Source: Limanda limanda
Lineage: Eukaryota > Chordata > Actinopteri > Pleuronectiformes > Pleuronectidae
Assembly: GCF_963576545.1 (NCBI RefSeq)
Contig: NC_083638.1
Location: forward strand, 28,989,900 to 29,053,899
Direction: 5' to 3'
DNA: 64,000 bases
Part shown: positions 15,804-63,348 of the stretch, in pieces
Position numbering within the stretch: the first letter of the stretch is position 1
How the letters are laid out: each line of letters begins with the position of its first letter
Program-made: the position numbers and the translations under genes
Notes under the pieces: model-generated
Told to the model about the DNA's origin: nothing
Databases searched by the model: none
Seen by the model: only the letters and a program-made list of their open reading frames with translations

Positions 15804-16054
15804 GATGCTACCCGGTTGGGGGGCCACATGCAATACTTCTATAAATACGTTCACAAGCAACCATTCCAGAAAGTGCTGGAACTTTAAACAAAAACTAGCA
15901 GGTAGCTAGCGTTAGCTCGCTACTGATAACGTAAATCATCTAAGTGGCCACAGCGGCAGAGACACGGTCCCCAACACCGGCAACCCCGGAGCTAACACCA
16001 GCACCTCCAAGGAACCATCACCGGGACGTGCATGGAGGTGCATGGAGGTGCCGG
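15804..16054. other. Short gene-free flank between hAT and Ginger
   Basis: The stretch carries GCTAGC/GTTAGCTC-like words seen also at 24604-24730, and a 10-bp direct repeat GTGCATGGAG just before the CCGG target. It appears to be the older sequence into which both neighbours inserted. Confidence 0.4.
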
Positions 16055-16323
16055 TGTTCCAGTTTAACTGGCGATCATGGCTTCTGGCGATATGTTTACC
16101 TTTTTGTTGATTTTTTTCCAGATGTTGATGGTCAGTTGCAGAGCTGGTCGCAGATTCGTCATTTTCACAAAGCGCCTGTGTGTGAAGTGCGGTGATCTAT
16201 TGAAGGTCTCGCTGAAATAAAAATCATACAGAAACCCTTCACGAGTTCATGTGTCCGTGTCAGCATCACGTTGAGACAGCAATATATATTAAATGTTAAA
16301 AAAAAAAAAAACAGTACAAAATT

Positions 16324-16402
16324 CTCGACCGGGATTCGAAACAGCGACCAAGAGCACTATTAGCTTCAGGTCAGATGACGATCTGACTACGCCACCGAGC
16401 CG
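16324..16402 (-). other. tRNA-like module A, left arm
   Basis: Read on the minus strand, GGCTCGG is followed by an A-box-like TGGCGTAGT and, about 50 bases on, a B-box-like GTTTCGAATCC. CTCG and CGAG near the two ends can pair as part of an acceptor-like stem. The T-arm does not pair well, so it is not a functional tRNA gene. It may be a relic SINE head or a polymerase III promoter. Confidence 0.5.
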
Positions 16403-16519
16403 CTGAATTCTCCGTCGCACAACAGATAAATGTCTCGTTCCTTGCTTTGTCAGCTGTATAACACCAGATGTGCTTTAAAGTAACGCCCGTGTCATCTGGT
16501 GATAGTCCCAACACAGAAT

Positions 16520-17112
16520 AAACGCATATATACATAATACCAGGCTTTACAATCTATTGCTCCTCTTCATAGGAGACACAGGGAGCTCTGAAGAACACAC
16601 ACGCGTGACCAGCTCCACGCAAACTGCTTGTGTTTGACGCTGGTGATCATTACAACGTGCACACACAGAACAAGTGTCAGATGTAAACATCGCCTCACAA
16701 CAAGGCGGAAGCTCCAGCGGTGTTTTTATGAGTAAAGTTGGTGAACGTGCTTCTAATGGACGGGTGAAGCTTCACGTGTCCTCCTGTCGCTGCTAGTTAG
16801 TCAGCAGACGTGATTTTAAAACACATGTGTAACAAGGCAAGTCTGAAAAACGAACTTAACGTCTTCATTGTCGAACAACGTGTTGTGTATTACTTCTCTT
16901 CTGTCAGATGGCTGTGCGCTTTGTTGGTGCTGTGTCAGTCGAACGAGTAAATAAAGTTCCCTGTGTAAATATGACAACACTGGCAAATTATAATAGTGAT
17001 AAATAATAATAATAAAACTATTTATATTTTGTTGTATTTTCCCAAACAATGTGGTGTGGTGATAGAAGCAATTGAGGACGCTTCAGGAAACATCAACATT
17101 AAAAATAAAGTG
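16520..17112. other. Extra 0.6-kb segment in left Ginger arm
   Basis: No coding frame is supported in it and no terminal inverted repeat is obvious. It is bounded by AATAAA on both sides. It could be an unknown insertion or a part lost from the other arm by deletion between the repeats. Confidence 0.6.
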
Positions 17113-17160
17113 CCTTTTGTGTCAGTATCATCTTCAGACTAAATATAAATGTGAGAGAAT

Positions 17161-17247
17161 TCCCACCACGGGAATCGATCTGCTGTGGTTCACATAAAAA
17201 TTAACGTAGTGCCCATGGCACTGCCCACTGCGCCAGTGATCGGGGAT
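17161..17247 (-). other. tRNA-like module B, left arm
   Basis: On the minus strand an A-box-like TGGCGCAGTGG stands about 60 bases before a B-box-like AGATCGATTCCC. The start of the module recalls the D-arm of initiator methionine tRNA. Pairing elsewhere is poor. The same module is found in the right arm at 24004-24090. Confidence 0.5.
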
Positions 17248-17644
17248 AATTACAGAGTCACATTTATGGATGGGTGACTGTGAAGCCTGTGCACAGCTTA
17301 CCATGAGTGATGGTTTCAGGGAACACGCCCAGGTTAACTTGTGACAGTCACAATTTCCCCGAAAACTCAGTTATCGGTCACACGTCACACATTTGGACAC
17401 CGCTGCGCCCGTGTGCTTACCACACTCACGACATCAAAAACTGCTATATCCTGCGCACAGACAAAGCAGTGCTTACTATTGTCTGCATTGCGTGTGCTCG
17501 TTGATATCATGGTTGGTATGAAGCAGGTATACAAACAGTAATGAGAGGCTCGTAAGAGCTTGTAGTCGGGAAAAAAATGCTAGTAACATGGTTTGGTGTA
17601 AGGTCTTTTATTTAGTGTCTTCATGTAATACATATGCACATCTT

Positions 17645-17885
17645 TACTTTTATCAATCAAATTTTATTTGTATAGCCCATATTCAAAAATCACAATTTGT
17701 CTCATAGGGCTTTAACATGGTGTGACACCCTCTGTCCTTAACCCTCAACAAGAGTAAGGAAACTACTAAAAACCCTTTTAACAGGGTAAAAATATGTAGA
17801 AACCTCAGAGAGACACATGTGAGGGATCCCTCTCCCAGGACGGACAGAAGTGCAATACATGTCAAGTGTAGGAAAACATCATCAG
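17645..17885. repeat. Dispersed teleost repeat inside Ginger
   Basis: The phrase TTTTATTTGTATAGCCCATA and the later GGGATCCCTCTCCCAGGACG are recognised from memory as a repeat common in perciform fish. It is non-coding, and its class is uncertain to me. It lies between the left arm and the last exon of the Ginger gene. Confidence 0.5.
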
Positions 17886-19559
17886 GAAAAAGGTTTTAGC
17901 TGCATTGATGAGGGTAAACAAGTCTGACATTATATCAATCAAGCTACCTTAAAAGCAATGAGCCGGTTAAACAGAAATTCTAATGTTTATACGCACAATG
18001 GGCAATAAAAAGGAGCATCGAATGGTGGTTGCCCAACAAAGCTGCAGTGGAACCATCCATCACAAAGTGTGTAAGCAATCTGGAAGTAGAGAAAATAATC
18101 TTTATGGCAGTACCATAAGTAAGACTTGCATCAACTGAAAGTGCTTAAAATCTGCCTTACCCATTGCACATCAGTGTCATATGAACCACACACACTCGGC
18201 ATAGGTCCGACAAATCATCTGTTCATGAAACATAGTTATGTTATTTTTTCCATAAATAGCTCTCGTTTTACAATAGCCAATAAAACCAATAAGGAACAAA
18301 CCTGTTTCTTTGATCAGCCGTTGGCTAATCTGCAACCTCATCCGCAAAATGGAGGACTTATCAAAAATGTCCTCCAAGTCCTCTTCATTAAGAATCATGT
18401 CTGCTAACTGGAACAAGAAACAAGTGGAAAACACAGGGATGCGTAAACGGTCCAACCATTATTTCTGAACTTGTTGATTGAAAGCTCCTTCACTTACTTT
18501 ACACACAATGACACCGCATGAGGTTGCATCTATTTGTCGAGCGTGTGGTACCGTTTGAGTGGACCATCGGGAGCAGTTGTGGCCCTGCTGCCTCATGAAA
18601 GCCCTATGCCAGGGATGCCAGGGTGAAATTGGACAGGGGGCCAGATTTTTTCAAGCAAGACCTCAGGGGGCCGGATTACACTTTCGGACTGAAAAGGCCA
18701 AACACTGACTCAACACATGGATAGGTAGGTTATTTGAAATTATTCATGAAGGCCTACACATCAATAAGAAATTGCATCGGCACCAAAATAGCCTCACAAT
18801 GAGGCCTAAAATTACATAGCCTAAAGCAGGAGACAGTTACCCTCTAAAAACGTTACATTTTCCTATCCATGCAAGTAGCCTACATTTATAAATTAGAAAT
18901 GCAACAAAATAGACTAGGTGCCAACAAAACACATTTCCTATAAATAACACAAGTGTAAACTGTTAATTACTTTTATTATATTTATTGAAGGCTTGCACAT
19001 GAAAACAAGTCAATGCAAAATAACGCCAATTAAAAGAAGGCCAGGCCAAGTAGGCCTAAACGAGTCACAGAAAGAAAGCGCCAGAATAAAGTAGTCCAAC
19101 ATTAGACCATATGATTGAATATCCAGTAGGAATTAGTAAAACAAAACGGTTCTTGAAAAAATAGGCAAATATGAGCTATCTAAAAACTAAATTGGCTCAA
19201 TAACAGATGAGGCACATTAACTTTGCCGGTCATCACCAGTCACCAACCCATATTTCCACACACCCATGTGCCTTTATGGCACTAGCCTGGCTATCAGTCA
19301 ACCCCAGCCCTTTTATTCCCTCCCCCCCATATCACAGTGGAAATTATAAAATATATCATACTCTCTGTATATTCTTTGTATACATAAGTCTATATACACA
19401 TATTTATACATGTGTACATGTTATAATTACTATTATTATATCACTATTACTATTATTATTATATATACTGTTGCTGCCATTATTACTATATACTGTTTTT
19501 ATATTGGTATAATTACTATCATATATAAATATATATTATGTTATATTATATACTATATA

Positions 19560-19722
19560 TACTGTACTATTCTTATATACTGTCTAACAATAACATTACC
19601 ATCTGTTTTTTATTCTTTCTACCTCAATATTTTTTATTTTATTCTATTGTATTGTATTTTTGTATTTTATTGTATTCAAATGTACCGGCTGCTATGACAA
19701 CTTAATTTCCCTTCGGAAAGTA

Positions 19723-19781
<59 letters not shown>

Positions 19782-19782
19782 A
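19560..19782. repeat. LINE-like tail followed by (CTAT)n
   Basis: A tail reading GACAACTTAATTTCCCTTCGG leads into about 14 units of CTAT from 19724 to 19780. Fish L2/CR1-like LINEs often end this way, but no coding part is present. The tail lies in the nested hAT. Confidence 0.55.
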
Positions 19783-20009
19783 ACACTCGTCTTCTCCCTC
19801 CACTTCCTCATTCACCCCTGACACGCCAACGAACCAGCCAATGAGAGCCTGTCATTCCACACAGCCATTGGTCAAGAACTGTCACATGTCCGACCCCGAC
19901 CTATTCACAGACACTCAGGACATCTCAGTACTTATTCAACACGGTGTACTTAGCGGAACATTCATAACAACAACATATCAAGCAGTCAAACAGAACAGAA
20001 CTCAACTAT

Positions 20010-20375
20010 CAGTTCGTTACAATATGTATTAAAATAAAACGAACCTTCATGTGTATCTCGACATTTGGAGAATACGGCTTGCTGTTTCTGTAGCGATGAT
20101 GCTAGCTCGTTTAGCTTTTGAGTCCGGAGTTGCCCTGTGTACTCGCCGTATTTCTCGGCGTGGGTCTCGTAGTGTCGTTTGATGCTGTACTCCTTTAGTA
20201 CAGCCACTTGTTGACGACAGATAAGACACACGGGTTTGCCTCCTACTTCCCAAAAGAAATAATTTTCTCTCCATCTATCCTGAAAGATGCGAGCTTCAGT
20301 GTCGACCTTCCTCTTCTTTGACAACATCTCGATCAGCACTACCGGCGCTGCTGCAGCTGAGGCGGGCAGCAGCAA
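20010..20375 (-). pseudogene. hAT transposase N-terminal exon (GTF2IRD2/SCAND3-like)
   Basis: The frame contains KKRKVDTEARIFQDRW, a cysteine pair in CLICRQQ and a His pair in IKRHYETHAEKY. This is the N-terminal finger of the Charlie-like hAT proteins related to the GTF2IRD2 and SCAND3 domesticates. No core or dimerisation exon follows inside the element. The copy is a remnant. Confidence 0.7.
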
Positions 20376-23300
20376 CAGACCAACTAACGGAGTCCACCGA
20401 AAATTTTAATTTTTTTTTTTTTTTTTAAATTCCATCAAAATTAAATTAAAATTTATATTCTCCCCTTATCACCCTCGGGCCGGATGTGATGTACAGTCGG
20501 GCCGGGTCCGGCCCGCGGGCCGTAACCCTGGCATCACTGCCCTATGCAGTATAGAAATAATAAATAGCACGTTTAAAATTCTATGAACCCCCTCCACACC
20601 ATGGCCCCCCTTACCTGGTCACTGCACTGCATTTTTTTAACGCCGCCTCCTGTGCCCCAAACGGATCCACATACACTGACTGTCTCTTTTTAGGATACAT
20701 CACCTGGACAAAGTAAAAAAGTCAACAAGGAATAAGTCTAACAGGAGCTGTATATTGTGATTCTAGCCAGAGCCCCTTACAGTTAGTGTCAAGTGTTGGT
20801 GCTCACAGACAGCTCCAATCATGACGTCGTACTCCATGGGATCTACCTTCATTCATGCAATATAGAACACATAAAATCAAACAGGTTTTCTCAGGAGCAA
20901 TTTGCCCTAATATTAAGATGCCGAATATATAATCATATGATCAAGATAAAAAAGTCCTACAAGTGAAGGAGCATGATAAAAAAGATCCCCCCTCATATGC
21001 AGTGTATTCACATTTATCACTTACCTTCCTCAGTCCTTTATTCTTTCCTTTCCAAATGTCGGTCATTTGGAAGGAGTCCAGTAAAAATCCCCTGCCTTTG
21101 CCTGCCTCTTCGAAATGTCTCAGCGCAATCGTGATGTATGCATTTATGAGCTGTAATGGAATCAAATTTTAACCCACATCTAAATTCAAATTGCTGAAAA
21201 CTTAGCTTACCTCACCTTCCACAAGTGCATCTGGACAAAGATGTTCACGGATGTTCTGCGTAAACAGTGTGTATGGGCCCGCTTTGCTCCACAAAAGCTC
21301 TGGCTTTTCACCAGCCCAAATGTTCTGTACCACTATGTAGAAAAATGTTGACACATTACTTGCAATAAACATTAGCAAAATAACTTCAGTCATAATTAGC
21401 TATTACCTGTTTCCAAAGTGTCTGAAGCGACATAAACTGCTGGAGATGGAGATGAGGGTGAGGCGACCGGAGATGAGAGTGACGGGGCTGGAGCTGAGGT
21501 TGAGGCTACCAGAGATGAGGGTGAGGGAGCTGGAGATGAGGGTGACACGGATAGTGTGGACGGTGATTCTGTTATCCATTTGTGGGGGATGCGCGGTGTA
21601 GGCTCGATGTATGGGTTAAGCTGGTCAATGTTTACTTTATGAATAACTTTGCTTTTCGGCGTGACTAGATCGGCACTTTTCCCCTCCAGTTTCACAATTG
21701 TGAAGGGGCCGAGCATGGAGGTCTCCATTTTGCCCCCCTTTCTCTGCTCCTGGCGAATATTTGCCCTCATCACCTTTTGGCCAACTCTGAAATTGTCATC
21801 ATGACCAGTCTCCTCTCTCTTTCTTTCTTTTTATCTTTTCCCTCACTTTCCCCATGTTGGCTTGAGCCACGCTGTAGTGGGCAGGGAGGCTCTCCATTCC
21901 CGGGGATTGAGTCTCCTGGGCAATAAGAGCCTCAACACCATCATCCGTCACCTGTGTCAAGAAACACATCAGAATGTTGAGTTACAGCAGCCATGAAGTG
22001 AAACATCCTAATTTTACAGGTTTTCCCACAATACACACATTACATGTGTACTTTCCTACATACCACATACTCCTCTGGAACCTCCGTAGGGTACCTGGCC
22101 TTACGTCCAAACATGAGGAAAAAGGGGGAGTATCTGGTGGTCAACTGCTTTTTGGTCCTTAAAGCAAAAAGGGTTGCTTGGAGGTGGCCATCCCAGGTGT
22201 TTGGTTTTTCACCCACTAATTTAGTCAAGGTGGTCCTGTAAGGTCATACACACAACATTGAGACCTTAAGATTGCAGTGTTTAAAAAGTCACAAACAGAC
22301 ATTTACAATACCTTTGAATGGTTCCATTCATTTTTTCCACAAAGCCGTTAGTCTGGGGGTGGTAGGGAGAGCAGAGACTTCTCTTTATGCCCAGCTTCTC
22401 ACAGACATTATAGTTGAGCTGAAAGAAAAGTGGAAACATTCACCATAACATTTATGATACAGATGGCATGAGGAGTTCTTACCGTATTAACAAATTTTCT
22501 TCCTTGGTCCGTGAGAAGCCTTTTCGGAGCACCAAACTTATAAAATAAGTCAAGGATACACTCTGTGACCTCAGCAGCACATTTGGTCCTCAAAGGATAG
22601 GCCTCTGTCCATTTAGTAAAGTAGTCAATCATGACACAAATGTACTGGTGGCCGTTTTTGGTTGGTGTGAGCTTGCCAAACAAATCCATCCCCACAAGCT
22701 CAAGTGGCTCAGTTACCTGAGGAAAGAGAGGAAAGAGAGCATGTTATGGAAATGTGTTGTTATTCTGGGATAGGGACTTATTTCAGTGCAGTCACCTCAA
22801 TGTAAGCCTTCTTTATTTTGAGGACATTCCTTCTGGCCTGGCATTGAGGACACTCCAATACCTACACAAATTTGAGAATTCAGTAAATTAGAAAACAACC
22901 AAATTGAATATGAAAGAGAATGTGTAATTTACACCACCATGCACAGAGATTACTGACAAAATTAAATCAAGCTCACCCATTTCCTTATGTCCTCTTGAAT
23001 CCCAGGCCAGTAGTAGCGCAAGGAAATGGCACCCAGTGTTTTTTCCATCCTGCAATGGCCTCCATGCTCACTCGCAAGGAAGGCCACAAACACATCGTTT
23101 GCCTCCTCTGGCGAGGTAAGTACTTTGGCGAGATACTCGCCCTGCTTTCTTCTACGGCATACATAGTGAAGCTGCCCATCTGAGGGCCATGATGATATTA
23201 GTAACTCCACATCAGTGCATTATTGTTTGGAAAGACAAGGCCACTACTTACCCTTCAAGATGTAGTTTTCACATCTCCTCTTTATTGAATATCGCTCTTT

Positions 23301-24003
23301 TGAGGATAAACCAAAAGGATAGGCGTTATGCCCCAGGAAGTCTTTAATTTCCCTGACCATTTTACGTTCCATTCTAACTATCTATCTATGTGTCCCTGAC
23401 TAAACTGTCACTAATATGAATACTACCCTGTGCTAATTTATGCTTATTGCTACTCAAATCTAGCCTATATCTAATATATACAACAATCTGTCCTTTATCT
23501 ACAATATTTTTTCTATACTATCCCTTCTCTAAATACTTTCTCACCTGAATTAATCTTACCTCAACAATCTCCCAAACTCTATCACTTTCTCAATTCTCTT
23601 TTGCTATTTGTATTTCTCTCGCTGTCTCTCTCTGAATATCCTTACTCCCTACAAATCAAGTGAGCTGAAAAATCCATATAAGTAGGCCTTGCCACCAACA
23701 GGTGACTGTGATTGAGCGAGTGTGAAATTACCTTCCTAATTATTTGGGCAAATGCTTTGATCATTGTAATTAGCCAAACGTTTCACACATGCGCAGGATA
23801 TAGCAGTTTTTGATGATGTCGTGCGTGCGGTAACACACGGGCGCAGCGGTGTCCAAATGTGTGACGTGTGACCGATAACTCTGAGTTTTCAGGGAAATTG
23901 TGACTGTCACAAGTTAACCTGGGCGTGTTCCCTGAAACAATAACTCATGGTAAGCTGTGCACAGGCTTCACAGTCACCCATCCATAAATGTGACTGTAAT
24001 TAT

Positions 24004-24090
24004 CCCCGATCACTGGCGCAGTGGGCAGTGCCATGGGCACTACGTTAACTTTTATGTGAACCACAGCAGATCGATTCCCGTGGTGGGAAT
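24004..24090 (+). other. tRNA-like module B, right arm
   Basis: The plus strand shows GATCACTGGCGCAGTGGGCA, with the A-box-like part, and AGATCGATTCCCG about 60 bases further. The mirror copy is at 17161-17247. Confidence 0.5.
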
Positions 24091-24258
24091 TCTCTCACAT
24101 TTATATTTAGTCTGAAGATGATACTGACACAAAAGGCATTTATTCTGTGTTGGGACTATCACCAGATGACATGGGCGTTACTTTAAAGCACATCTGGTGT
24201 TATGCAGCTGACAAAGCAAGGAATGAGACATTTATCTAATGTGCGACAGAGATTTCAG

Positions 24259-24338
24259 AGGCTCGGTGGCGTAGTGAGATCGTCATCTGAACAGAAGCTA
24301 ATAGTGCTCCTGGTCGCTGTTCCGAATCCCGGTCTAGA
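24259..24338 (+). other. tRNA-like module A, right arm
   Basis: The plus strand shows GGCTCGGTGGCGTAGTGAGA and, 46 bases on, CTGTTCCGAATCCCGG. One extra C lies in the B-box-like part relative to the left arm. The mirror copy is at 16324-16402. Confidence 0.5.
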
Positions 24339-24603
24339 TTTTTATACTGTGTTTTTTTGTTTTTTTTTAACCATTTAATATATATTGCTGTCTCAACGTG
24401 ATGCTGACACGGATACATGAACTCATGAAGGGTTTCTGTATGATTTTTATTTCAGCGAGACCTTGAATAGATCACCGCACTTCACACCAAGCGCTTTGTG
24501 AAAATGACGAATCTGCGACCAGCTCTGCAACCGACCATCAACATCTGGAAAAAGGTAAACATATCGCCAGACGCCATGATCGCCAGTTAAACTGGAACAC
24601 CGG

Positions 24604-33500: not shown

Positions 33501-33635
33501 AATAAACTTTCTCATGTTTTAGTGCACTGCCACAACATTCTGAACCTAACATTTTTGTAAACGACACTCACTGAAATGAACTTGAACTTAAGAATAATTT
33601 TAGGTGAATGTGGCAAATGCTGGTAGGGTTACTTA

Positions 33636-34927
33636 AAGGTTTTTTGCCAGAAATACCAGCCTGTTAACGTGATCAGGTTTCAGAGATGAGCGCAAGCAGG
33701 AAACAATATTTCCACTAGTGCTAAAGACTCGCTCTGAAGAGGAACTTGTGGCAGGAATACACAAATATTTCCTGGCCAGATTTGAAAGACGTGGGTACAT
33801 CATTCTGACATCTCTCCACCAAGTCAGAGGGTTCTCCTCAGGATCTAGTGTCTCCGTCTGGAGGTAAGACTGGATCTCGAGAGCAATGGCTTGGTCCTGA
33901 TGCGGAGGAGGCCCTGCAGCCTTGTCTGCGGTGACCTTGAAGAAGCTGCCCAGGCCCTTCTTCCTCTTCTTACAAGCACCAGCATCCTCTGTATCAGCAG
34001 GCAAAGCAGCTGTTTCCAGAGGGGCTTTCTCCTTAGGGGCAAAAAAGAAAATGGGTATCATATTTAACAGTTGTGTGTTAATATCACAATATTTGCCAAC
34101 ACATAAATTCACTTAATGTGATATTATTATTATAATTATTGTTATTGTTATTACCATGGCACTGGCAGTAATCAAATCCCTCATCTCCACTTTCAGGCGA
34201 TCTACAATGGATCCAGTCTTGTCTTCATCCACATATTTTAACTTGAACCTTGGGTCCAGGGCAGAGGCCATGTCAAGTAGCTCTTGTGTCGCTCTGTCAC
34301 TGTATTTCTCATTGAGATACTCCAGTATTTTGTGTTTGATGGTTTTTGCAAGTTCTGTGTCATCCTCCTGGTCTTCCAAGATTGTATTGTTAAAGAGGTG
34401 AAGGGTTGGCTTCACAAAAGACACACTAACATATTTCTCTCCTGAAAGCGCATCTGTGAATTCAACCAGAGGGCTTAGTGACTTATTGATGGCCTCTAGT
34501 ACTTCAACATCCTGCCAGGAGAGGGTGAGATGTCTGAGTTTCCGGTCAGTAGAAAGAACCTGGGCAATGGCCTTCTGCTGCTCAAGGACCCTCTCGATCA
34601 TGGCCTGCCTAGATCCCCATCTGGTTAGACATTCTGTCTTCAGGGAGTGTTCAGGCAGATTCAACTGCTTCTGCACCACTTCAAGTTCCCTCTTTTTTTT
34701 CCAGCTGTAGGAAAAACTGCTGACCAACTTCTTGCAGACCCCCATTACACGGCTGATCCTGGGATCCGTCATTGCATTCTCTAAGATAACAAAAATAAGA
34801 TTAAAATTAAAACATATTTAGTATCACATTGGCTAACAGCACTGTGACGCCAGGAAACACTCTGAAAATGTTTCCTCATTATGAAATGTCCCCATCTGCC
34901 CCCCTCCCCCCACTATAAGCACACATG

Positions 34928-34959
<32 letters not shown>

Positions 34960-35600
34960 GAGAAAGAGAGAGAGGGGTGGGGGGTGGCTATGAGGAACAT
35001 CATCGTTTACCCCCGAACCAACATTGAATGGTTTACATACAACAACAAGCGGAGAATCGTGGGTCCGGTGTTTACAGCCAGACGGCTGCGCGCTTAAGAA
35101 TGGCGCGGCGCTTCAGAGCCCTGTGTATCATCACTAATCTAACCCTCATGCCATTTTTCACATAAGAATAATTGCTACTCACCTATGGCCAGGTGGAGTC
35201 TGTGCCCGAAACATTGGAGCCTCATCCATCCATTTATTTCAACTGCCAGCTTCATGTTAGCGGCATTGTCCGTGGTGATGCAGACCAGTTTTCCCTCGTT
35301 GAGTCCCCATTCCGCCAGAGCTTCTCTCAGTCCATGGGCGATGTTTTCTCCAGTGTGGTCTTCAGGCATGAAAGCCGTTTGGAGACATCTGACTCTTAAA
35401 CGGAATTCACTGTCGATGAAGTGGAGAGTCAGGCTGATATATGGCTCCATTTTGCGGCTGGACCACAGGTCTGTCGTCGCCGCGAAGTCGTCCGCTTGAG
35501 ACACTTCTTTTTCCACTTCTTCTCGACATTTCTTGTACATATTAGGAAGAACCACTCGGAATGGGATGCGAGGCGGGACTGAAACGTCCGCATCTCTTTC
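33636..35600 (-). pseudogene. ZBED1-like hAT transposase, N terminus missing
   Basis: Three exons on the minus strand: about 35600-35190, about 34787-34154 and about 34037-33636. They encode the core phrases DDFAATTDLWSS and ITTDNAANMKLAVE, then TRWGSRQAMIERVLEQQ and ALDPRFKLKYVDED, and finally the dimerisation region LCIPATSSSSERVFSTSGNI. The reading frames are open over each exon with plausible splice sites. No BED finger exon lies upstream of 35600; the region up to 36000 shows stops and a CA array. So the gene is 5'-truncated but otherwise well kept. It sits inside the 4.6-kb hAT. Confidence 0.8.
34935..34975. repeat. GA microsatellite in an intron
   Basis: A run of GA units with few interruptions lies between the first and second preserved exons of the ZBED1-like gene. 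Confidence 0.85.
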
Positions 35601-36837
35601 ACGGCGGAACAGTAAAAAAAGTCGTTGTTTCTCCGGAGCCAGGGGTGGGGGGGTGTCTCATCCCGCGACTCTTCGGCCCCTCTGCAGTGCTCCCAGTACA
35701 GTGTTCATATGTTGAATGGGAACGTCACGTTCATCTGTCAAATCAGCATCGTATCAGACCAGCATGAAAAAACCAGGAGCGGGCATGTGTGTGTGCGTTT
35801 GCGCGAGCGCACGCGCACAGACAGCACACTCACACACACACACACACACGGGGCCCCGCCCCCACTCACTTGCTCAGGTGGCATGTTTTTACTTTTTTTT
35901 CACCTCAAACACACATCTGTAAAATTATGTAACTCATACTTAACTAAATAACTATGTAGTCATATAGTCAGACGGACAATAGGCCTACATAGCCGTGTAT
36001 AATCAATGCTATGATGTCACCATGTAGTTTTCAATAATATCTTGCTGTAGGCTAATACTAATATGAATACCATTTGTTAAGTGTTCAAAAAGCTGGGCAG
36101 GAACAAGCTGGTAAAAAAGGGAACCCTGCAGATGTTTTATTTATTACTATCATAGATAAATATACCAGTATCGTATCGTATTTGTGGTATCGTACCGTAT
36201 TTGTGGTATTGCATCGTATTTGTGGTATCGTATCAAAAGTATCGAGTACCGTGATATTTTGGCAGGTATAGTATCGAAGTCATAATTTTGGTATCGTGAC
36301 AACACTACTCTCATAGAGTTGGATGCGAAGAGAAGATGCCCGGCAGGAGCAGTCAGGCCCCCCCTAGGTGATGCAGGAGAGGAGAGGCTGGACAGCCGGC
36401 TGTCCTCAGTTGTGGTCGGTGGAGAAAGAGAAAGAATTGGGGGAGATGTTCCCTTATATTGGCCCAGTGACCCCCAGGTCATGGGGCCAGATTGACCAAT
36501 TGGATTTGACTTTGGTTGCTTTTCACAGCTCTGTGGGACATTTGCTGAAACAAAGAGAACATGTTGCACCCTGGGAGGCAGAGTTCTTTAGCTTTCCAAG
36601 AACAAAGAAAACATGTTGTCCCTTGGGAGACTGAGTTTGGGAGGCTTGGTCCAGCACATGTGGCCATGTGGTTTCAGCTTTTGTCCACACATGTAGGCCG
36701 AGAAGGAAGCCTTTAGTTTCATAAAACGTGTTTCAAAACAGTTGATACTATTTCTTGGAGGCTTCTTTTCAGGTGTCTTCCCTTTGAAATGAAATAAGGC
36801 CACAAAGCATTTGCATGACATAATGTTTTGAAGCAGT

Positions 36838-39695: not shown

Positions 39696-40813
39696 CAGGG
39701 GTGTCAAACTCAAATACGCAGTGGGCCGAAATCAAAAAATTGCTTCAAGTCGAGGGCCACATGGGTTCAACGTTTATTGAAAACTTATTGAAAGAACCTT
39801 AGTGCACATATTGAACCTGGAACTAACAAGGCCTATAGAGTATGCCGATAAAACAACATTAATTATGAAAAAAATGAAATACAAATAATAAATAATACAT
39901 AAATAAATATAAAAGTAATAAAATCAGTTTCATTAATTGCTTTCTAGCTCTATCTGCAGTATTTCCAGAGTAATTTCCAGCGAAAACATTTTCTACAGGC
40001 AAACAACAGCCAAAAATAATTGACTTTAAAGAAAAATCAAATGTCCTGTTGTTGCAAGAGAAAAACAAGTTTCCCTGCAGCATCTGCGTCTCCCACAGGC
40101 GCAGCTTGGTTTTAAAGCCCTCACTGTAGAGTACATGTCAGTGATGTCACGCCCCCCCCGAAGCTGCAGGTTGAGCGCATTCAGGTGGCTCGTGATGTCA
40201 CAGGAACGTTTTATTTCGGAGCTCTGTTGGGCCTTTCCCTGTGCTTTCAATAAACTCACAGATCTCCTCACGCAACTGGAACCATCTTTCCAGAAACTTT
40301 CCCTGGTTCAGCCATCGCACCTGTGTGTGATAGTGCAAGTCACCATATTCTGTACTTAACTCCTCCAGAAAAGACTTGAACTGGCGGTGATTTAAACCTT
40401 TGGCTCTGATAAAGTTAACCGCTAATGTTATGATGCTCATCACATGTTCATTTTCAAGGCTTTGCCACACATCGACTCCTGGTGTATGATGCCGTGATAA
40501 GCTGTCAACTCACTTTTTTCCTCACTATTTTCCTCCTTCATCTTTTCTCGGATCCACCCTTTACATCCGCGAATGTATACTGTTCCTCCCACCTGTCTTG
40601 AAAGCTCCTGTTTTCAAATGCCACCTTCGTTTAGACATTTTTGGGAGCGGGATAGTTGAAAGTGTTCACTGACCCTCAGGAATTCTCAGTACTTATTTTG
40701 TATTGAGAACTTGCAAAACACTGCCGGCAGGCCAGCTCTAATAGTAAATAGATTTTATCATGCAGGCCACATATAATTCATGTGGCCCGCGGGCCTTGAG
40801 TTTGACACATGTG
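39696..40813 (-). mobile_element. Charlie-like hAT with exact TSD, 1118 bp
   Basis: CAGGGGTGTCAAACTCAA at the left matches the reversed right end CACATGTGTCAAACTCAA. GTTTAGAT stands at 39688-39695 and 40814-40821. It is inserted in the 3' region of the ZBED hAT. Confidence 0.95.
40040..40470 (-). pseudogene. hAT transposase remnant (GTF2IRD2/SCAND3-like)
   Basis: The minus strand encodes LNHRQFKSFLEELSTEYGDL and HTQVRWLNQGKFLERWFQLR, followed after a frame change by CDITSHLNALNLQLRGGRDI. These phrases are typical of the core-to-C-terminal part of Charlie-like transposases. The rest of the gene is absent from the element. Confidence 0.75.
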
Positions 40814-40889
40814 GTTTAGATTAATCGACTAATCGATAAAATAGTCGACAGATTAATTGATAGAAAAATAGTAATTAGTGGCAGCCCTA

Positions 40890-43265: not shown

Positions 43266-44228
43266 AAAGGCTCTTATATACTTCTACGTATCCGTTTCTC
43301 GGAGAGGTCTCAGCGGGAGACAAAGTGTCTTTTTGATTTTTACTTCTCCGACGACTATCCGTCTAAAAACAATTCCCCGCCAAACCCATAGGTGGCGCAA
43401 CGGAAGACGAGCTCAGAGAAGCCTACCCCATTTGGGAAGAAGAAGTCCACGTGTCTCTGTTGACATGTTAGCTTGTCCCACACACTGAACCATGGCAACT
43501 AACAGATCTAAATAAAGTGACACCCAGCGTGTCAAAATGCTGATGTAATCGTTTCTTAGCGCAGCGGTTCCCCGGTCTTGTTTCCGAACTGTGTTGCTGA
43601 TTCCACAGCTTGAATCTGCTTGAGGCTACATGTAGCTAGAAGCTACCCGGACCTAGCTCCCCCCCAGCTTCCACACACAGTCAGCAGGGACTCCCGACAC
43701 TAACTACTACCCAGTGTTTGCTTCTAACCTGACGGTATTATAGAAACAGTGTCATGATAGAAGTGGAATTAAAGTCGTGACGGCGGGTTATTGCACTGTT
43801 ACCACCGCAGTTAGCATGGTGGCTAGCCTAGCCCGCTAGCGCCGTTTTGAAAGCTCGTTATAACCGTATGTGACCGTGCACACATGCCCTCAGTGCTCTA
43901 ACGAGCCAACGTCAGCCGGACAACTCCGCTGGCTTAACACACACGTCACATTAATCGTAGAATCATAGTTGTGTTCGTGTTTGTTGCTACAAGTAAACAG
44001 AAAGTTTGAGGTCCGGAAATACGGAAATGACGTCATACGGAAATGATGTCGTTCGCGGACCAATCACAGCCAAGAGCGGTCCGTCGGGTCTCCAAAATGA
44101 AGACGGATAGTTAGAAAAATCAGACGTGTACGAAAAGCTGTCGGAGGCGCTCGGAGACGTTTCACGACGGATAGGGCGGTCTTATCTGTCCGTAATAGAA
44201 ATAACGGAGAGGCATAAATTGGCCTTTA
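43266..44228. mobile_element. Nested element with TAAAGGC ends
   Basis: The left end TAAAGGCTCTTATATACTTC and the right end AAATTGGCCTTTA form a short, imperfect inverted repeat, with GAC outside both. Words such as CGGAGA recur near both ends. It has no coding frame; class uncertain (PIF/Harbinger or Mariner-like). Confidence 0.5.
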
Positions 44229-49954: not shown

Positions 49955-50684
49955 GATGCGAGGGACGTTCGCTGTCTCCCGGAGAGATGAGCACTCTTGT
50001 GTTTTTGGTGTGGAAAGACGTGAATTGTATTCGTTCGCAAGTCATACAGACTGGTTTTGTTATTTTCACTTTACATTAACACTTAAAGTTTAGTGCAGTG
50101 TAATTGTTTGCCGTGATAATTAAATGTTAGTGTGATAATAAATGACAATTTCAAACCATACAAACTGTCATGTTGTACTGTATTTAATAGAGGTTTACTT
50201 TACTGTAAAGTAGGTGTGAATGTTAAGTGAAAATAACGGGGCCAGTCATTGTGACTTGTGGACGGATGTGGTTCGCGTCTTTCTGTGCTGGAAACACGGA
50301 GTGTTCATTTCTCCGGGAGACAGTGAACGTCCCTCTCATCTCCAGCGCTCCTCTACTGAGCCAATGCAGGTCTCGTGAAACATTTTCCAAAGACTCGTAC
50401 CCGAAGACCCAGTCGGGAAATGAACGAATCATTTCTGCTTCCTTGACTGAGCCTATGGAACAGTCCCGATGCGCAGTGAACCTGAGTGACTGAGAGACAG
50501 AGAGCTGTTCTGTGAGTGAGTGAGCAGAGCCGTGTGTGAATGGGAGGAGCGCTGTGACGCTGTGTGAGGATTTTCATTCAGTCCGAGCACAGATAATGAC
50601 TCCGATTACTCATATTATAATCGTACTCGGCAAAAGTGCTTTATCCGTACCGGATACTCGTTTCAGCCGAGTATCCGGCTCATC

Positions 50685-50693
<9 letters not shown>
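49955..50693. repeat. Fold-back repeat related to the 45.8-kb MITE
   Basis: The arm 49955-50080 is repeated in reverse at 50222-50345, with words such as GAGGGACGTTCGCTGTCTCC in one and its complement in the other. The right end reads GGCTCATCTCTA, the same terminus as the 533-bp MITE. Its left terminus is missing, so no target duplication can be scored. Confidence 0.75.

Positions 50694-50716
<23 letters not shown>
50692..50716. repeat. AT microsatellite at the LINE edge
   Basis: A run of TA units joins the MITE terminus to the truncated LINE reverse transcriptase frame. Confidence 0.85.
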
Positions 50717-50721
<5 letters not shown>

Positions 50722-52800
50722 AGGACATCATCTGCAAATAAGGAAATAATGTGGTTTTCCTCACCCATCCCAAATATATCAGGGTTAGTTCTGATGACCT
50801 CGGCCAGAGGTTCAATAAACAGTATAAACAGTAAAGGTGACAGGGGGCACCCCTGTCTGCATCCCCTGCGCACCGGGAAGCCATCAGACATCAAGCCATT
50901 TGTATTAACTGTGGCTATTGGGTCTGAATAGAAGGTTTTAATCATGTTAATGAAATTAGAGCCCAGGCCGAATTTTGCTAACACCAGAAACAGAAAAGAC
51001 CATTCTACCCGGTCGAAAGCCTTTTCAGCATTAAGGGAGACTATAAGTGCTGGATTTTTATGTGTGTTAAGATACTGAACAACATTAAGAACGCGACGTA
51101 CATTTTCTGTGCCATATCTTGATTTTACAAACCCTGCTTCATCTGGGTTTATTATTTTCAGAAGGATGTTTTCCAATCTCTGAGCCAATACCCTTGCAAT
51201 AATTTTGTTACCCACATTGAGGAGACTAATAGGCCTTAATGATGAACAATCTAAAGGGTTTTATCTTTTTTTTAAAGTAAACTATTGGAAGCGTATCTCC
51301 AGGAGGGGGGCATGCCATCTCTCAAGATACCATTAACGGCAGGCATAAAAATTATGCGGATCTCTGGCCACAATTTCTTAAAATATTCCAGTGGAAACCC
51401 GTCAGGGCCTGGACACTTCCCATTTGGCATAGACTGAATTGCAGCCTAGACCTTCTCTGGAGTGAATGCAGCGTCTAAGCTGGAGCGATCCTCCTCTGCA
51501 ATAGTAGGTAAATGGACATTGTTCAAATATGAAGCAATATCAGTCTCGTCAGCCTTATCTGTACTATACAGGGATTTATAAAAATCCCAGAAAGTACTAT
51601 TGACAATCGTTGGATCATATGTGACATCCCCATTCTGTGTTCTTATCATATTAATTGAGCGATCATTATTTTGATTTTTCAGTTGGTGGGCAAGCAGGCG
51701 ACTGGACTTATTGCCAAATTCATAATATTTCTGTTTAGTGTAAAGTAACTATTTCTGAACATGACGAGTACGATCCAAGTTAAGTGCAGTCTTGACAGCG
51801 ACTAGCACCTTTAAGTTTGCTAGAGTAGGTGACTGTTTATGTATCTGCTCCAGCCTAGTCAATTCTTTTTCTAAGGTTCTTTCTGTTTTCCTAAAGCTTT
51901 TTTCTGATGAGAGCTGTAGGATATAAGGTAACCACGTAAAGTGGCTTTAGCTGCATCCCAGATCAAAGCAGAGGACACTGGAGAGCTTTTATCGTCAAGC
52001 CAGAATTGTGATTAGTTGTTCCGGACAAAAACGCAAAAAGAGTCACTATTTAAAAATGACGTGTTGAATCTCCAAGTGGGAGTTATAGGAATGTTAAATA
52101 ATGGGTTAATGCATAGATGTACCGGAGCGTGGTCTGATAAAACAATAGAGTCTATACAGCAAGTCTGGACAGAGTGTAAAAAGTCTTTGGGAATAAAAAA
52201 ATAGTCAAGTCTAGAATACGAGTTGTGGGGATGTTAATAAAACGTGTAGTCTCTCATTTTAGGATTTAAATGTCGCCATATATCTATCAATCCGGTATCT
52301 GTGCATACAATTTTAAGGACAGCAGACGCTCTTTGCAGAGGAGGATTTATCAAGAGAAATGTTCATTATACAATTCAAATCGCTGGCTAGGAAGCCTAAG
52401 CCCTTGCAGTGATGGTTAACCATCAAAATTTTTGCGACATAAACTGGGGTGAATCAATATTTGGTGCATAAATATTGAGAATAGTTATATGTTGTTCAAG
52501 AATCGAACCCTTAATCAAAATAAATCTCCCCTCTGAGTCCTTTTCTTCATGTTCCAAGATGAAGGGAAGGTTCTTATTTATAAGAATGGCTGTACCTTTT
52601 TTTATTCTGTGAATGGGAAAAAAAGTAAACTTTGCCTACCCAGTCCCTCTTAACTTTCAAATGTTCTGTATCAGATAGCCTAGTTTCCTGAAGTATATAA
52701 GCCAGATGAGATTTTTGTTTTTTCAAATATGTTAAAATCTTCTTCCTTTTAATTACATGGCCCAGTCCCTGGACATTCCAAGTAGTAAGTTTAAGTGAAA
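50694..52800 (-). pseudogene. L1 ORF2: endonuclease and RT remnants
   Basis: The region 52800-51700 carries endonuclease fragments in several frames, with many stops. From 51215 to 50694 one frame is open and holds reverse transcriptase motifs: DEAGFVKSRYG, VSLNAEKAFDRVEW (normally VSLDAEKAFD), GCRQGCPLSPLLF and the catalytic SLFADDVLLF. The Asp in the DAEKAFD motif is Asn here. The thumb and C-terminal parts are missing. The original enzyme copies LINE RNA at a nicked chromosomal target. Confidence 0.85.
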
Positions 52801-54422: not shown

Positions 54423-55925
54423 TCAAGCGTCCATCTTGATCCGGATCCGGAAGTGATGAGTAAGTAGGTTTAATGAGCTTTAGTTTTGAAAAACTTCGCT
54501 CAGCAGAGGCAACTGTAACAGGGAGAGTTAATGCAATTCGAAGAGCAACCCAGAGATTTGGATACACCTCTTGAAGGCATTTCTCATCGAGAAATGTGAG
54601 CACCTTCATGGCAGTTCTCTGTGGTGGCAGTTGTGGAAGGTTGATGATTTCCTGAACCATCTCAAGTCCATCAATATCAGAACTTCCTTTCTCAGTCAGT
54701 GTCTTCTGCACTTCAATGCAGTTTTTTTTGTAAGTCCTCCTTTGACATTTCGTCCACTCTGCTGAAATCAAGCAGCACTCCAAATTTGTCTCTGACCTGG
54801 GTCATGGTCTCAAAACGCTCCTGCAGTGACATCAAAGCTGAGTCCACAACACTATTGAAAATTTTTACCTCAAGCCTTTTGAGGGCATCACTGAAGGGTT
54901 CGTCAGCAGCCTCATATGCAAACTGCCTTTTTGTGTTCCTGAGCCTTTTCTCCTTGAGCTCCGGCTCTATGTTCATGGCCTTGCAAAGGTCCTTGGCAGT
55001 TGACACTGCCTCAGCAAACCCAGAGTGCCTGTATCTGGAGAGGGAGGTTTTGGCATTGTCAATGAGCCTGATAGCAATGTCAAGTTGCATTGAACTAGTC
55101 TGCAGAAGCTTGTTTACTTGGTTAGTTGCCGTAAGAATTTCACACCAGACAACAGAACAGATCAGAAATCTAAAAGAGGCCACCTCTTCTGCCAGGGCTT
55201 GAGCCTCTATTTTTGCGACTGGCTCATTGACTGTTTCCCTAGCCTCGATGAGCGCATTTCTGATTTCTTTAATTTGGCTTCTGGCAGCTGTGACACTCTT
55301 AAGCCTGCTCTCCCACCTCACATCACTCCATGATTTCACAGTCAGGCTTACGTGTTTTGTCAAGATGATCCATCGCTGTGTAGCTCCTGAGAAGAAACGA
55401 AATAGCTTCTGCAAATAGCCAAAAAAGCCAGTGGCATCCCTGGACGACTTGGCAGCATCAGCTATGACAAGATTCATCGAATGAGCTGCGCAAGGAACAA
55501 ACAACGCCCTCGAATAACATTGTAACAGCTGGGCCTGAACTCCTTGCTTCTTCCCCTTCATGTTTGCTCCATTGTCATAGGCCTGTCCGCAGCAATTATC
55601 AAACGGGATGTTGAGTTCCTTCAACTTGTCTAGAAGGACAGTAGACAGGTTCAGGCCAGTTGCTTCAACCACCTCCATTAAACAAGCCAACTTCTCATGA
55701 TCTTCTATCCATTTGAGAGTGTTTTGAATTGTAGGCTACTATGAAACGCCCTGCCATCTAATCCCCTTGGACAATTAAAATCTGATGGGATTTTAAATGG
55801 ACCTCTTCGTACTATTTCAACACGATCTGCGTCTAAAACGTGTGGCGGCCAAAGAGCAGAATCAGTTGGAGGGGGCACACAGGTCTCTACATTGTCACCT
55901 GCTGATGGACTCTCAATGACAGGAC
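54423..55925 (-). pseudogene. ZMYM1-like hAT transposase, core and C terminus
   Basis: A 325-residue open frame (55690-54713) encodes KELNIPFDNCCGQAYDNGAN, VPCAAHSMNLVIADAAKSS and VRWESRLKSVTAARSQIKEI, the central part of a hAT transposase of the ZMYM1-like group. After a frame change it continues to LTLPVTVASAERSFSKLKLI, the dimerisation motif, where the LINE begins. Upstream, 55925-55690 holds a TTF-type finger start (DRVEIVRRGPFKIPS). An internal segment between the finger and the core is missing. Further N-terminal pieces lie at 56167-56240, 59546-59633 and 63349-63436. Confidence 0.8.
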
Positions 55926-56623: not shown

Positions 56624-58121
56624 CAGTGGGTATGGAAAGTATTCAGACCCCTTTAAATATTCCACTCTTTGTTTCATTGCAGCAATTTGCAAAAATCAAA
56701 AAAGTTAATTTTTTATCTTGACAGAAAAAACAGAAATGTAGAAATTTTTGCAAATTTATTAAAAAAGAAAAACTGAAATATCACATGGTCATAAGTATTC
56801 AGACCCTTTGCTGTGACACTCATAGTTAACTCACATGCTGTCCATTTCTTCTGATCCTCCTTGAGATGGTTCTACTCCTTCATTGGAGTCCAGCTGTGTT
56901 TAATTAAACTGATTGGACTTGATTAGGAAAGGCACACACCTGTCTATATAAGACCTTACAGCTCACAGTGCATGTCAGAGCAAATGAGAATCATGAGGTC
57001 GAATGAACTGCCCAAGGAGCTCAGAGACAGAATTGTGGCAAGGCACAGATCTGGCCAAGGTTACAAAATAATTTCTGCAGCACTCAAGGTTCCTAAGAGC
57101 ACAGTGGCCTCCATAATCCTTAAATGGAAGAAGTTTGGGACGACCAGAACTCTTCCTAGGCATGGCTGTCCAGCCAAACTGAGCAATCGTGGGAGAAGAG
57201 CCTTGGTGAGAGAGGTAAAGAAGAACCCAAAGATCACTGTGGCTGAGCTCCAGAGATGCAATAGGGAGATGGGAGAAAGTTCCACAAAGTCAACTATCAC
57301 TGCAGTCCTCCAGCAGTCGAGGCTTTATGGCAGAGTGGCCCGACGGAAGCCTCTCCTCAGTGCAAGACATATGAAAGCCTGCATAGAGTTTGCCAAAAAA
57401 CACATGAAGGACTCCCAGATTATGAAAAATAAGATTCTCTGGTCTGATGAGACCAAGTTTGAATTTGTTGGCGTTAATTCTAAGCGGTATGTGTGGAGAA
57501 AACCAGGCACTGCTCATCACCTGCCCAATACAATCCCAACAGTGGTGAAACATGGTGGTGGCAGCATCATGCTATGGGGGTGTTTTTCAGCTGCAGGGAC
57601 AGGACGACTGGTTGCAATTGAAGGAAAGATGAATGCGGCCAAGTACAGAGATATCCTGGAAGAAAACCTCTTCCAGAGTGCTCTGGACCTCAGACTGGGC
57701 CGACGGTTCACCTTCCAACAAGGCAATGACCCTAAGCACACAGCTAAAATAACAAAGGAGTGGCTTCGGAACAACTATGTGACCATTCTTGACTGGCCCA
57801 GCCAGAGCCCTGACCTAAACCCAATTGAGCATCTCTGGAGAGACCTGAAAATGGCTGTCCACCAACGTTCACCATCCAACCTGACGGAACTGGAGAGGAT
57901 CTGCAAGGAAGAATGGCAGAGGATCCCCAAATCCAGGTGTGAAAAACTCGTTGCATCATTCCCAAGAAGACTCATGGCTCATGACCCGTTTTTTTCTGTC
58001 AATATGGGGTGCTGAGTGTACATTGATGAGAAATAAAATGAACTTTTTTGATTCTAGCAAATGGCTGCAATGAAACAGAGTGAAAAATGTAAAGGGGTCT
58101 GAATACTTTCCGTACCCACTG
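56624..58121 (+). mobile_element. Full-length Tc1 element, 1498 bp
   Basis: Both ends carry CAGTGGGTA(T/C)GGAAAGTAT and match for about 100 bp. TA stands at 56622-56623 and 58122-58123. An inner direct repeat GTATTCAGACC at about 56793 in the left end recalls the IR/DR layout. The interior has one uninterrupted transposase gene. Confidence 0.97.
56972..58015 (+). CDS. Tc1 transposase, 347 aa, second Asp lost
   Basis: The protein starts MSEQMRIMRSNELPKELRDR. Residues of about 10-115 form the paired helix-turn-helix region (GYKIISAALKVPKSTVASII is the first recognition part). The DDE core has LWSDETKFEF with the first Asp, and NPIEHLWRDL with the Glu. The second site reads QQGNDPKHTA where Tc1 enzymes have QDNDPKH; the codon at the catalytic Asp is GGC instead of GAC. 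The frame is otherwise complete and of normal family length. The enzyme normally excises and integrates at TA sites. With the Asp replaced by Gly it should bind its ends but not cut. The upstream sequence has no other likely start. Confidence 0.93.
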   Translation: MSEQMRIMRSNELPKELRDRIVARHRSGQGYKIISAALKVPKSTVASIILKWKKFGTTRTLPRHGCPAKLSNRGRRALVREVKKNPKITVAELQRCNREMGESSTKSTITAVLQQSRLYGRVARRKPLLSARHMKACIEFAKKHMKDSQIMKNKILWSDETKFEFVGVNSKRYVWRKPGTAHHLPNTIPTVVKHGGGSIMLWGCFSAAGTGRLVAIEGKMNAAKYRDILEENLFQSALDLRLGRRFTFQQGNDPKHTAKITKEWLRNNYVTILDWPSQSPDLNPIEHLWRDLKMAVHQRSPSNLTELERICKEEWQRIPKSRCEKLVASFPRRLMAHDPFFSVNMGC

Positions 58122-62766: not shown

Positions 62767-62854
62767 GCGTCCCTCGTCCGGGTGTGGACTGGCTCCTGTG
62801 ATGCTTGTCCCGAGCCCCAGCTCGCTACTGCTGATAAGGGGAGAGAGTCATTAG
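62767..62854. repeat. 88-bp exact direct repeat, copy 2
   Basis: This copy lies just upstream of the protease part in the element's reading direction. In both copies the minus strand can be read as NDSLPLSAVASWGSGQASQE. Confidence 0.93.
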
Positions 62855-62951
62855 TGGAACTGAAACACCTGAGTACAATTAGACTCTCTCCCAGGCACCG
62901 ATCCCAGCACCCTATCTCCACTCCCTCCCTTCTGTAGCCGACGCTGACCAT

Positions 62952-63348
62952 CCCCCACTACCACAATGACAAAAAAGGGTCAGTATAGAAAGAGACAAAA
63001 TATTCAAACAAAGAATCTTATACTGAAAAAATTATAAACATTTAAAACTGAAAGCATGCAGCCAAGGCGCTCTCCCCCTTTATTTATCAACTATTTGATA
63101 AATCTAATCTAATATAAAAGCACAATAGAATGTAAAGTAAAGTAACATCTAGCTGGCGTCAGTTAGGCCTACTTGTAAAATGCATAATGTTTAACAGTAA
63201 AATCTCAATTTAGCTTGCATCTAAGTTATAACATATTTGAGTGTGCTAAAATTAGCAATAACGTCAGCTAGTTTGAGGTGTATGCATAGGCTAACCATTA
63301 AATTAGCAGCACATTTCCCATATTTAACAATGATTAAACATGGACTTA
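62952..63348. other. Gene-free stretch, intron side
   Basis: AT-rich sequence between the Gypsy pol region and hAT exon 1. I expected a 5' LTR and primer-binding site here but see neither. Confidence 0.4.

Follow-up and report, generated by a model that had tools for sequence, protein, structure and literature searches.

What kind of mobile element carries an integrase gene between long inverted arms is the question raised by positions 16055-24599 of the window, a stretch of 64,000 bp (C3:28989900-29053899) in the Limanda limanda genome, which comprises 717 Mb in 336 contigs and was searched for relatives. This inverted-repeat DNA element is very probably a decayed autonomous Ginger1 DNA transposon of teleosts, moved by an integrase-like DD35E transposase, with TG...CA ends and a 4-bp CCGG target duplication. 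Its identity rests on the tests given below, and its mode of excision we infer.

The element starts with TGTTCCAG and ends with CTGGAACA, giving TG...CA termini, and touches CCGG on both sides (16051-16054 and 24600-24603, the left and right copies of the target duplication), as the earlier note had claimed and as direct reading bore out. The word CTGGCGAT is present twice within the first 40 bp of the element end, and could be a candidate binding site. The left terminal inverted repeat arm occupies 16055-17624 on the plus strand and the right arm 23790-24599 on the minus strand. When the right arm was aligned with 16055-17457 of the left one, as the earlier note had proposed, two blocks of 91.0% (477 columns) and 95.8% identity (359 columns) were obtained with a best score of 666 bits, while random pairs of window pieces of equal lengths reached at most 47 bits (n=45); the inverted repeat is real and a chance origin of it was rejected. 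The arms are unequal, with about 588 bp (roughly 16523-17110) in the left arm only and AATAAA common at the break. A sister copy lies on contig C4; with its arm, the left arm aligned over the whole length (85.5%) and the right one in two blocks only. Since window 16055-17624 is homologous to the whole 1.6-kb C4 arm, the right arm is the side that lost sequence, shortened here by two losses. The repeats of about 810 bp reported before were thus rightly placed far above 40-270 bp, a remembered range that is the value printed in Bao et al. 2010 (PMC2836005), but they were an underestimate, the C4 arms being about 1.6 kb.

The gene lies on the minus strand, with 15 exons from 23372 to 17987 and 14 introns, all GT-AG. 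Exon 1 (23252-23372) contains the presumed start codon and a YP motif, exon 2 (22977-23179) the H2C2 zinc finger (Integrase_H2C2, E 7e-10), and exon 3 (22796-22861) the CPQC of this finger. The catalytic residues D141 and D200 are encoded by exon 4 (22483-22716; rve, E 8.7e-13) and the third one, E236, by exon 5 (22312-22418); exon 6 (22064-22235) continues the integrase, and exon 7 (21407-21951) contributes the LGPF (GPY/F) motif and a Ser/Pro-rich stretch. Exon 8 (21211-21332) and exon 9 (21025-21150) are followed by the Ulp1-like part, which is composed of exon 10 (20781-20846, histidine region), exon 11 (20615-20703, VDPFG) and exon 12 (18498-18603, Q...TSCGV). After exon 13 (18302-18407), the PHD-like part starts in exon 14 (18161-18218) and ends, with the stop codon, in exon 15 (17987-18079). 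Exons 1, 6 and 14 were placed by the gene model, exons 3, 5, 7-13 and 15 by the gene model and alignment, exon 2 by the gene model and its Pfam match and exon 4 by the gene model, its Pfam match and alignment. In exons 1-2, AYPF...NYILK...LHYV was compared by eye with the YPYY motif that precedes the zinc finger in Ginger1.

Pfam identified Integrase_H2C2 (E 4.5e-14) and rve (E 2e-16) in the spliced model, and the best match of the protein among PDB sequences was foamy virus integrase (E 3.2e-24). The window protein was aligned over its full length with seven relatives (P0002, P0005, P0006, P0007, P0009, P0010 and P0020). In all eight sequences D141, D200 and E236 were invariant, with 35 residues separating the last two, as were the G and P of LGPF; VDPFG and TSCGV of the Ulp1 part stayed in register, and so did the PHD-like tail. 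The precomputed Pfam lists of the seven relatives include Ulp1 (PF02902) in five and PHD in three. The gene content named in the earlier note (integrase, Ulp1-like peptidase and PHD-like tail) was therefore confirmed by alignment. Its word "complete", taken as functional, did not hold, since the frame is broken twice, in an AAAG/GA run of exon 7 near 21830-21845 and at a GTGTGTG run of exon 14. Two residues are also missing at the end of exon 3, where relatives are longer, and the alignment shows a change in at least one PHD cysteine.

The element belongs to a family. When the genome was searched with 471 bp of the left arm, 40 of 166 candidates were scored and all 40 matched; 20 stretches around such matches were fetched and, like the window, belong to the examined DNA. 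Ten exons tested against the 20 stretches gave no match at E <= 0.01, so these represent gene-less copies or pieces. Eleven gene-less copies retain both ends; they measure 2.1-3.5 kb, and their arms about 0.5-1.1 kb. The element tip gave 72 alignments in the examined DNA; of these, 57 extend to the first four bases and yield 32 distinct ends, and the family ends read TGTTC or TGATC. CCGG flanks 25 of the 32 distinct ends (21 of 28 after ends in the same host sequence were merged), against a background of 0.18% of window positions and 0.26% of all examined DNA. The other copies have the same boundaries, against the differing ones that the earlier note had named as grounds for doubt.

For ten copies the joined flanks were compared with the examined DNA, and four empty sites with a single 4-bp target each were found, serving five of them. 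The site of L038 lies inside the window at 43296-44079 (97% over 800 columns; the target there is TCGG), and so does that of L049 at 40662-40821 (89%); L042 and L047 have theirs in L034 (98% over 178 and 93% over 326 columns) and L033 in L040 (87% over 608 columns). Rather than orthologous alleles, these sites represent further copies of the host repeat, and their single 4-bp target makes the duplication real. No empty site was found in the examined DNA for L031, L032, L036 and L037. Several copies (L042, L043, L047 and others, on contigs C12 and C13) lie in common flanking host sequence, and so were multiplied within a larger duplicated unit instead of by separate insertions.

Gene-bearing copies were revealed by searching the genome with single exons. 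Exon 4 had four Ginger1 places, namely the window, C4 (94%, open), C15 (90%, one TGA) and C13 (66%, one TGA), and the remaining 146 of 150 scored matches (622 candidates) were at most 46% identical. Exon 6 gave the window, C4 and C15 again, with weaker pieces on C2 and C13. The C4 copy (C4:87917-95957) is flanked by CCGC and CCGG, and its arms of about 1.6 kb are 99.4% alike (1600 columns including 4 of flank, 8 mismatches, 1 gap). The comparison covered parts of exons 1-8, with exon 7 read up to its Ser/Pro-rich end; these parts are open, their splice sites correspond to those of the window copy, and at the position of the window-copy frameshift exon 7 is unshifted.

The two arms of one copy usually resemble each other more than expected from separate ageing. 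Over the outer 480 bp of both arms in 11 copies (22 arms), arms of the same copy differ by 0-7.8% and copies differ from each other by 9.9% on average, and 15 of the 22 arms have their closest match in the other arm of their own copy. The arms have probably been homogenised in several lineages, since separate ageing since the family began would not give such clustering. Gene conversion or copying during repair would be the ordinary answer for what keeps them alike. That each copy is merely young, with no homogenisation, is rather unlikely. Some copies are young indeed: the outer 480 bp of the L037 arms are identical and differ by 1.7% from C4, which suggests that L037 moved recently, and the C4 arms are 99.4% alike; moreover, L031/L032, L042 and one L036 arm do not cluster by copy. 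However, separately aged arms should differ within a copy at least as much as between copies, while the arms of the window copy (7.1%) and of L047 (2.9%) are each mutually nearest.

Concerning the wider affinity of the integrase, 290 proteins were found at E <= 1e-3 from 7986 scored candidates, and the best 120 of them were used for further comparison. The 92 of these that passed a 170-column cover rule, 11 long frames of the same genome and the window protein gave 104 rows, of which 65 entered a tree made by a quick method with the Shimodaira-Hasegawa-like approximate likelihood ratio test (SH-aLRT) as its only support; six partial or poorly aligned teleost rows (P0021, P0024, P0025, P0033, P0034, P0040) were left out, and 33 further rows to keep it small. 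The window integrase fell into a 27-row set with 26 teleost Ginger1-like rows (SH-aLRT 100), the nearest being P0010 of Labeo rohita (77% over 239 columns). A wider join with an OTU-bearing protein and a sponge Ulp1-bearing protein was supported at 93. The 18 rows bearing reverse transcriptase or RNase H, and the 11 genome frames, called Gypsy from length and integrase, stood outside the teleost set. A placement within long terminal repeat (LTR) retrotransposons, the second ground for doubt of the earlier note, was hence not what the tree gave.

It is accordingly very unlikely that the element is a whole or partial LTR retrotransposon of Gypsy type in which two LTRs happen to stand opposed around an integrase gene. 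This reading draws on an integrase of Gypsy type whose best solved relative is that of foamy virus, on TG...CA being LTR ends as well, and on the abundance of Gypsy elements in the same genome. Against it, arms inverted in this way between CCGG flanks are seen in many copies, and the gene is split by 14 introns, which the RNA stage of a retrotransposon would remove. No reverse transcriptase domain was found in the window-element frames scanned against Pfam, nor is one in the Pfam lists of the seven aligned relatives, and the tree separates the window integrase from the 18 retrotransposon-type rows.

Among the proteins, the nearest relative, P0010, comes from a cyprinid, and old lineages or transfer between species could lie behind this likeness. 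The Pfam list of P0025 (Oreochromis niloticus) contains, besides a Ginger1-like integrase part, Gypsy domains of RNase H type, either a fused element or a prediction artefact. Many teleost proteins of the Ginger1-like kind stand in public databases under non-transposon names.

A weak exon 4 match at C17:7013012-7013245 may link the element with the vertebrate gene GIN2. From AG to the following GTGAGT, this C17 exon has exactly 78 codons with phase 0 on both sides, as element exon 4 has; 29 of 78 residues are identical, TDQG is replaced by SRLP, and an aspartate lies four residues on. According to Chalopin et al. 2012 (PMC3424704), GIN2 has lost the second aspartate and has another four residues away. 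We assign the C17 exon to GIN2 by inference, on its similarity and boundaries together with the absence of the second aspartate and the presence of one four residues further along. A second exon was not seen by eye in the 0.5-0.7 kb flanking it, and among the 120 of 205 matches listed in a protein search with a 301-aa query none was clearly GIN1 or GIN2 by name, so the comparison rests on one exon of the same genome. Three introns common to GIN genes and hydra Ginger1 were reported by Bao et al. 2010 (PMC2836005), and Chalopin et al. 2012 (PMC3424704) leave it open whether the transposon brought the GIN introns or whether they were gained afterwards. With the present element a far more intron-rich transposon is known from a vertebrate; two of its introns bound an exon matching a GIN2-like exon, and these common boundaries bear on the origin of the GIN1/GIN2 introns.

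The many introns and the exon 4 boundaries common with the GIN2-like gene might also point to an immobile GIN-type host gene flanked by an unrelated inverted repeat, which is hardly credible given that the gene occurs at 90% or more in at least three genome places (window, C4 and C15), that C4 has matching arms with CCGC/CCGG flanks, and that arms with the same ends occur elsewhere without the gene. A long-armed fold-back element of another superfamily, which had captured a Ginger1 gene but owed its movement to another enzyme, would suit the long arms known from fold-back elements such as Galileo (PMC4079207) and the lack of the gene in most copies, but it has scarcely any probability, since Ginger1 is characterised in print by CCGG duplications together with TG...CA ends (PMC2836005) and C4 carries the gene between the longest, best-matched arms.

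Several points weigh against the assignment to Ginger1. Bao et al. 2010 (PMC2836005) print arms of 40-270 bp, a length of 2.6-7 kb and 0-4 introns for Ginger1, compared with C4 arms of about 1.6 kb, a length of 8.0-8.5 kb and 14 introns here. The published ends are TGTNR, whereas TGTTC and TGATC both have C as fifth base, and TGATC has A as third. Seven of the 32 distinct ends are not on CCGG (CCGC twice, ACGG, CCCG, CCGA, CCTG and CGAG), and seven of the 22 outer arms are not paired with their own partner (four in L031 and L032, two in L042 and one in L036). Empty CCGG-type sites, which the earlier note had proposed to look for, were obtained for the five other copies, but none for the window copy was found in the examined DNA. 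In the window copy Ulp1 stays below the Pfam cut-off (E 0.21), PHD is not listed, and the gene carries its frameshifts in exons 7 and 14. The tree contains neither hydra Ginger1 nor Ginger2 nor Maverick, and GIN1/2 are also absent from the set. The TGTNR mismatch is read as divergence within Ginger1, because it concerns the terminal pattern and not a domain. The range of 40-270 bp is descriptive, and arms of 810 bp, about 1.6 kb and about 0.5-1.1 kb therefore mark a variant instead of an ordinary Ginger1 member.

For a Ginger1 transposon, movement may be pictured from what is known of the group. The encoded integrase would recognise the arms, excise the element and insert it elsewhere, joining the TG...CA ends to a staggered cut at CCGG, from which the 4-bp duplication would result. 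The Ulp1 part may remove SUMO- or ubiquitin-like tags and so help movement, the PHD part may contact chromatin, and the arms would be kept alike by gene conversion or repair copying. A bolder combination, which seems possible though unlikely, is that a still-mobile, intron-rich teleost Ginger1 lineage has its kilobase arms copied from one another during movement or its repair, and that its intron-bearing stock was the source of GIN2. If so, GIN2 would have inherited its introns from the transposon, and the host would not have gained them later. The arm copying implies a fold-back or template-switch step, and to our knowledge no such step has been described for integrase-type transposons.

Ginger1 links retroviral-type integrases to DNA transposons, and its excision step was stated as unknown by Bao et al. 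2010 (PMC2836005). In the literature consulted, vertebrate Ginger1 was found mostly as relics, table entries and domesticated genes. A C4-type copy, with near-identical long arms and readable integrase exons, offers a vertebrate system for testing Ginger1 excision.

Not all of the 8.5-kb span is Ginger. A hAT-like element of 1.93 kb (18610-20539, with a zf-C2H2_12 frame at 19986-20405) is nested in intron 11, which makes almost one quarter of the span foreign. Its 8-bp duplication CCCTATGC (18602-18609 and 20540-20547) lies across the 3' splice site of intron 11. A repeat related to this nested element hosts the Ginger copies L049 and L050.

In the arms, the stretches 16331-16393 and 17170-17234, mirrored at 24268-24330 and 24015-24079, contain word pairs resembling the consensus A box and B box of RNA polymerase III promoters. 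All of them read outward to the element ends and are largely kept in 37 and 16 aligned arm sequences. A pattern built from these words had four matches against none in 100 shuffles, which is an unfair test, because the pattern was taken from the same sequence. ARAGORN in its bacterial setting found no tRNA in the window or in 23 loci, and Rfam, with E as high as 10 allowed, found none on two box-bearing stretches; the presence of a tRNA or a tRNA derivative in the arms is unsupported, and the word pairs remain an observation only.

The window is otherwise rich in mobile elements. Read by eye, 60163-62957 contains Gypsy-like frames in the order protease, integrase and reverse transcriptase, which is the order of Gmr1-like elements, and frames resembling hAT-type, LINE-type (long interspersed nuclear element) and Tc1-type genes occur at 33633-35657, 50610-51260, 54713-55735 and 56927-58015.

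Among known systems, Polinton/Maverick, described with DNA polymerase B and capsid genes (PMC5753468), was discarded, as no frame of at least 150 aa exists anywhere in 16055-24599. Galileo and other fold-back elements have long arms of varying length and signs of homogenisation within a copy (Tetris, PMC4079207), but Galileo is of the P superfamily, while the present family has an integrase gene and CCGG targets. Gypsy LTR retrotransposons have a related integrase and TG...CA ends; the element differs from them in having inverted arms without direct LTRs, no reverse transcriptase in the scanned frames, introns, and a separate place in the tree. Ginger2/TDD are alike in the integrase-type transposase, terminal inverted repeats and TG...CA ends, but they are described with AT-rich RTATAY targets and no GPY/F (PMC2836005), in contrast to the CCGG targets and GPF found here. 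GIN2 has an exon with the same two phase-0 splice boundaries as element exon 4 and 29 of 78 residues in common, but is reported as a fixed vertebrate gene without the second catalytic aspartate (PMC3424704), while in the element D, D and E are all retained, and arms as well as Ulp1 and PHD parts are present.

Ginger1 is the closest system. Its published signature is CCGG duplications with TG...CA ends and a CCGT/ACGG minority (PMC2836005), and the family has the same 4-bp duplication and ends, with ACGG at one family end. The H2C2 zinc finger, DDE core, GPY/F, Ulp1, PHD and GT-AG introns agree as well, and the closest members are Ginger1-9_HM (Ulp1 and PHD) and Ginger1-5_HM (four introns), although the host is not among the four species listed for Ginger1 in 2010 (PMC2836005). 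In other animals, Ginger1 appears in a grayling genome table with 59,568 and 66,177 bp in two columns (PMC6505133), as relics in alligator, turtle, coelacanth and frog (PMC9004415), and in domesticated form as Imagin of crustaceans (PMC12863088). The statement of the earlier note that such elements are little described in fish is fair for the structure: among the CC-licensed PMC papers listed for Ginger and GIN, none reports in its title or abstract a long-armed or intron-rich teleost Ginger1, and one paper obtained on long inverted repeats concerns Tetris. Ginger1 as such, however, stands in the grayling table, and many teleost proteins of its kind are recorded under other names. The element thus follows the published Ginger1 plan, but with family arms several times longer and with 14 introns.

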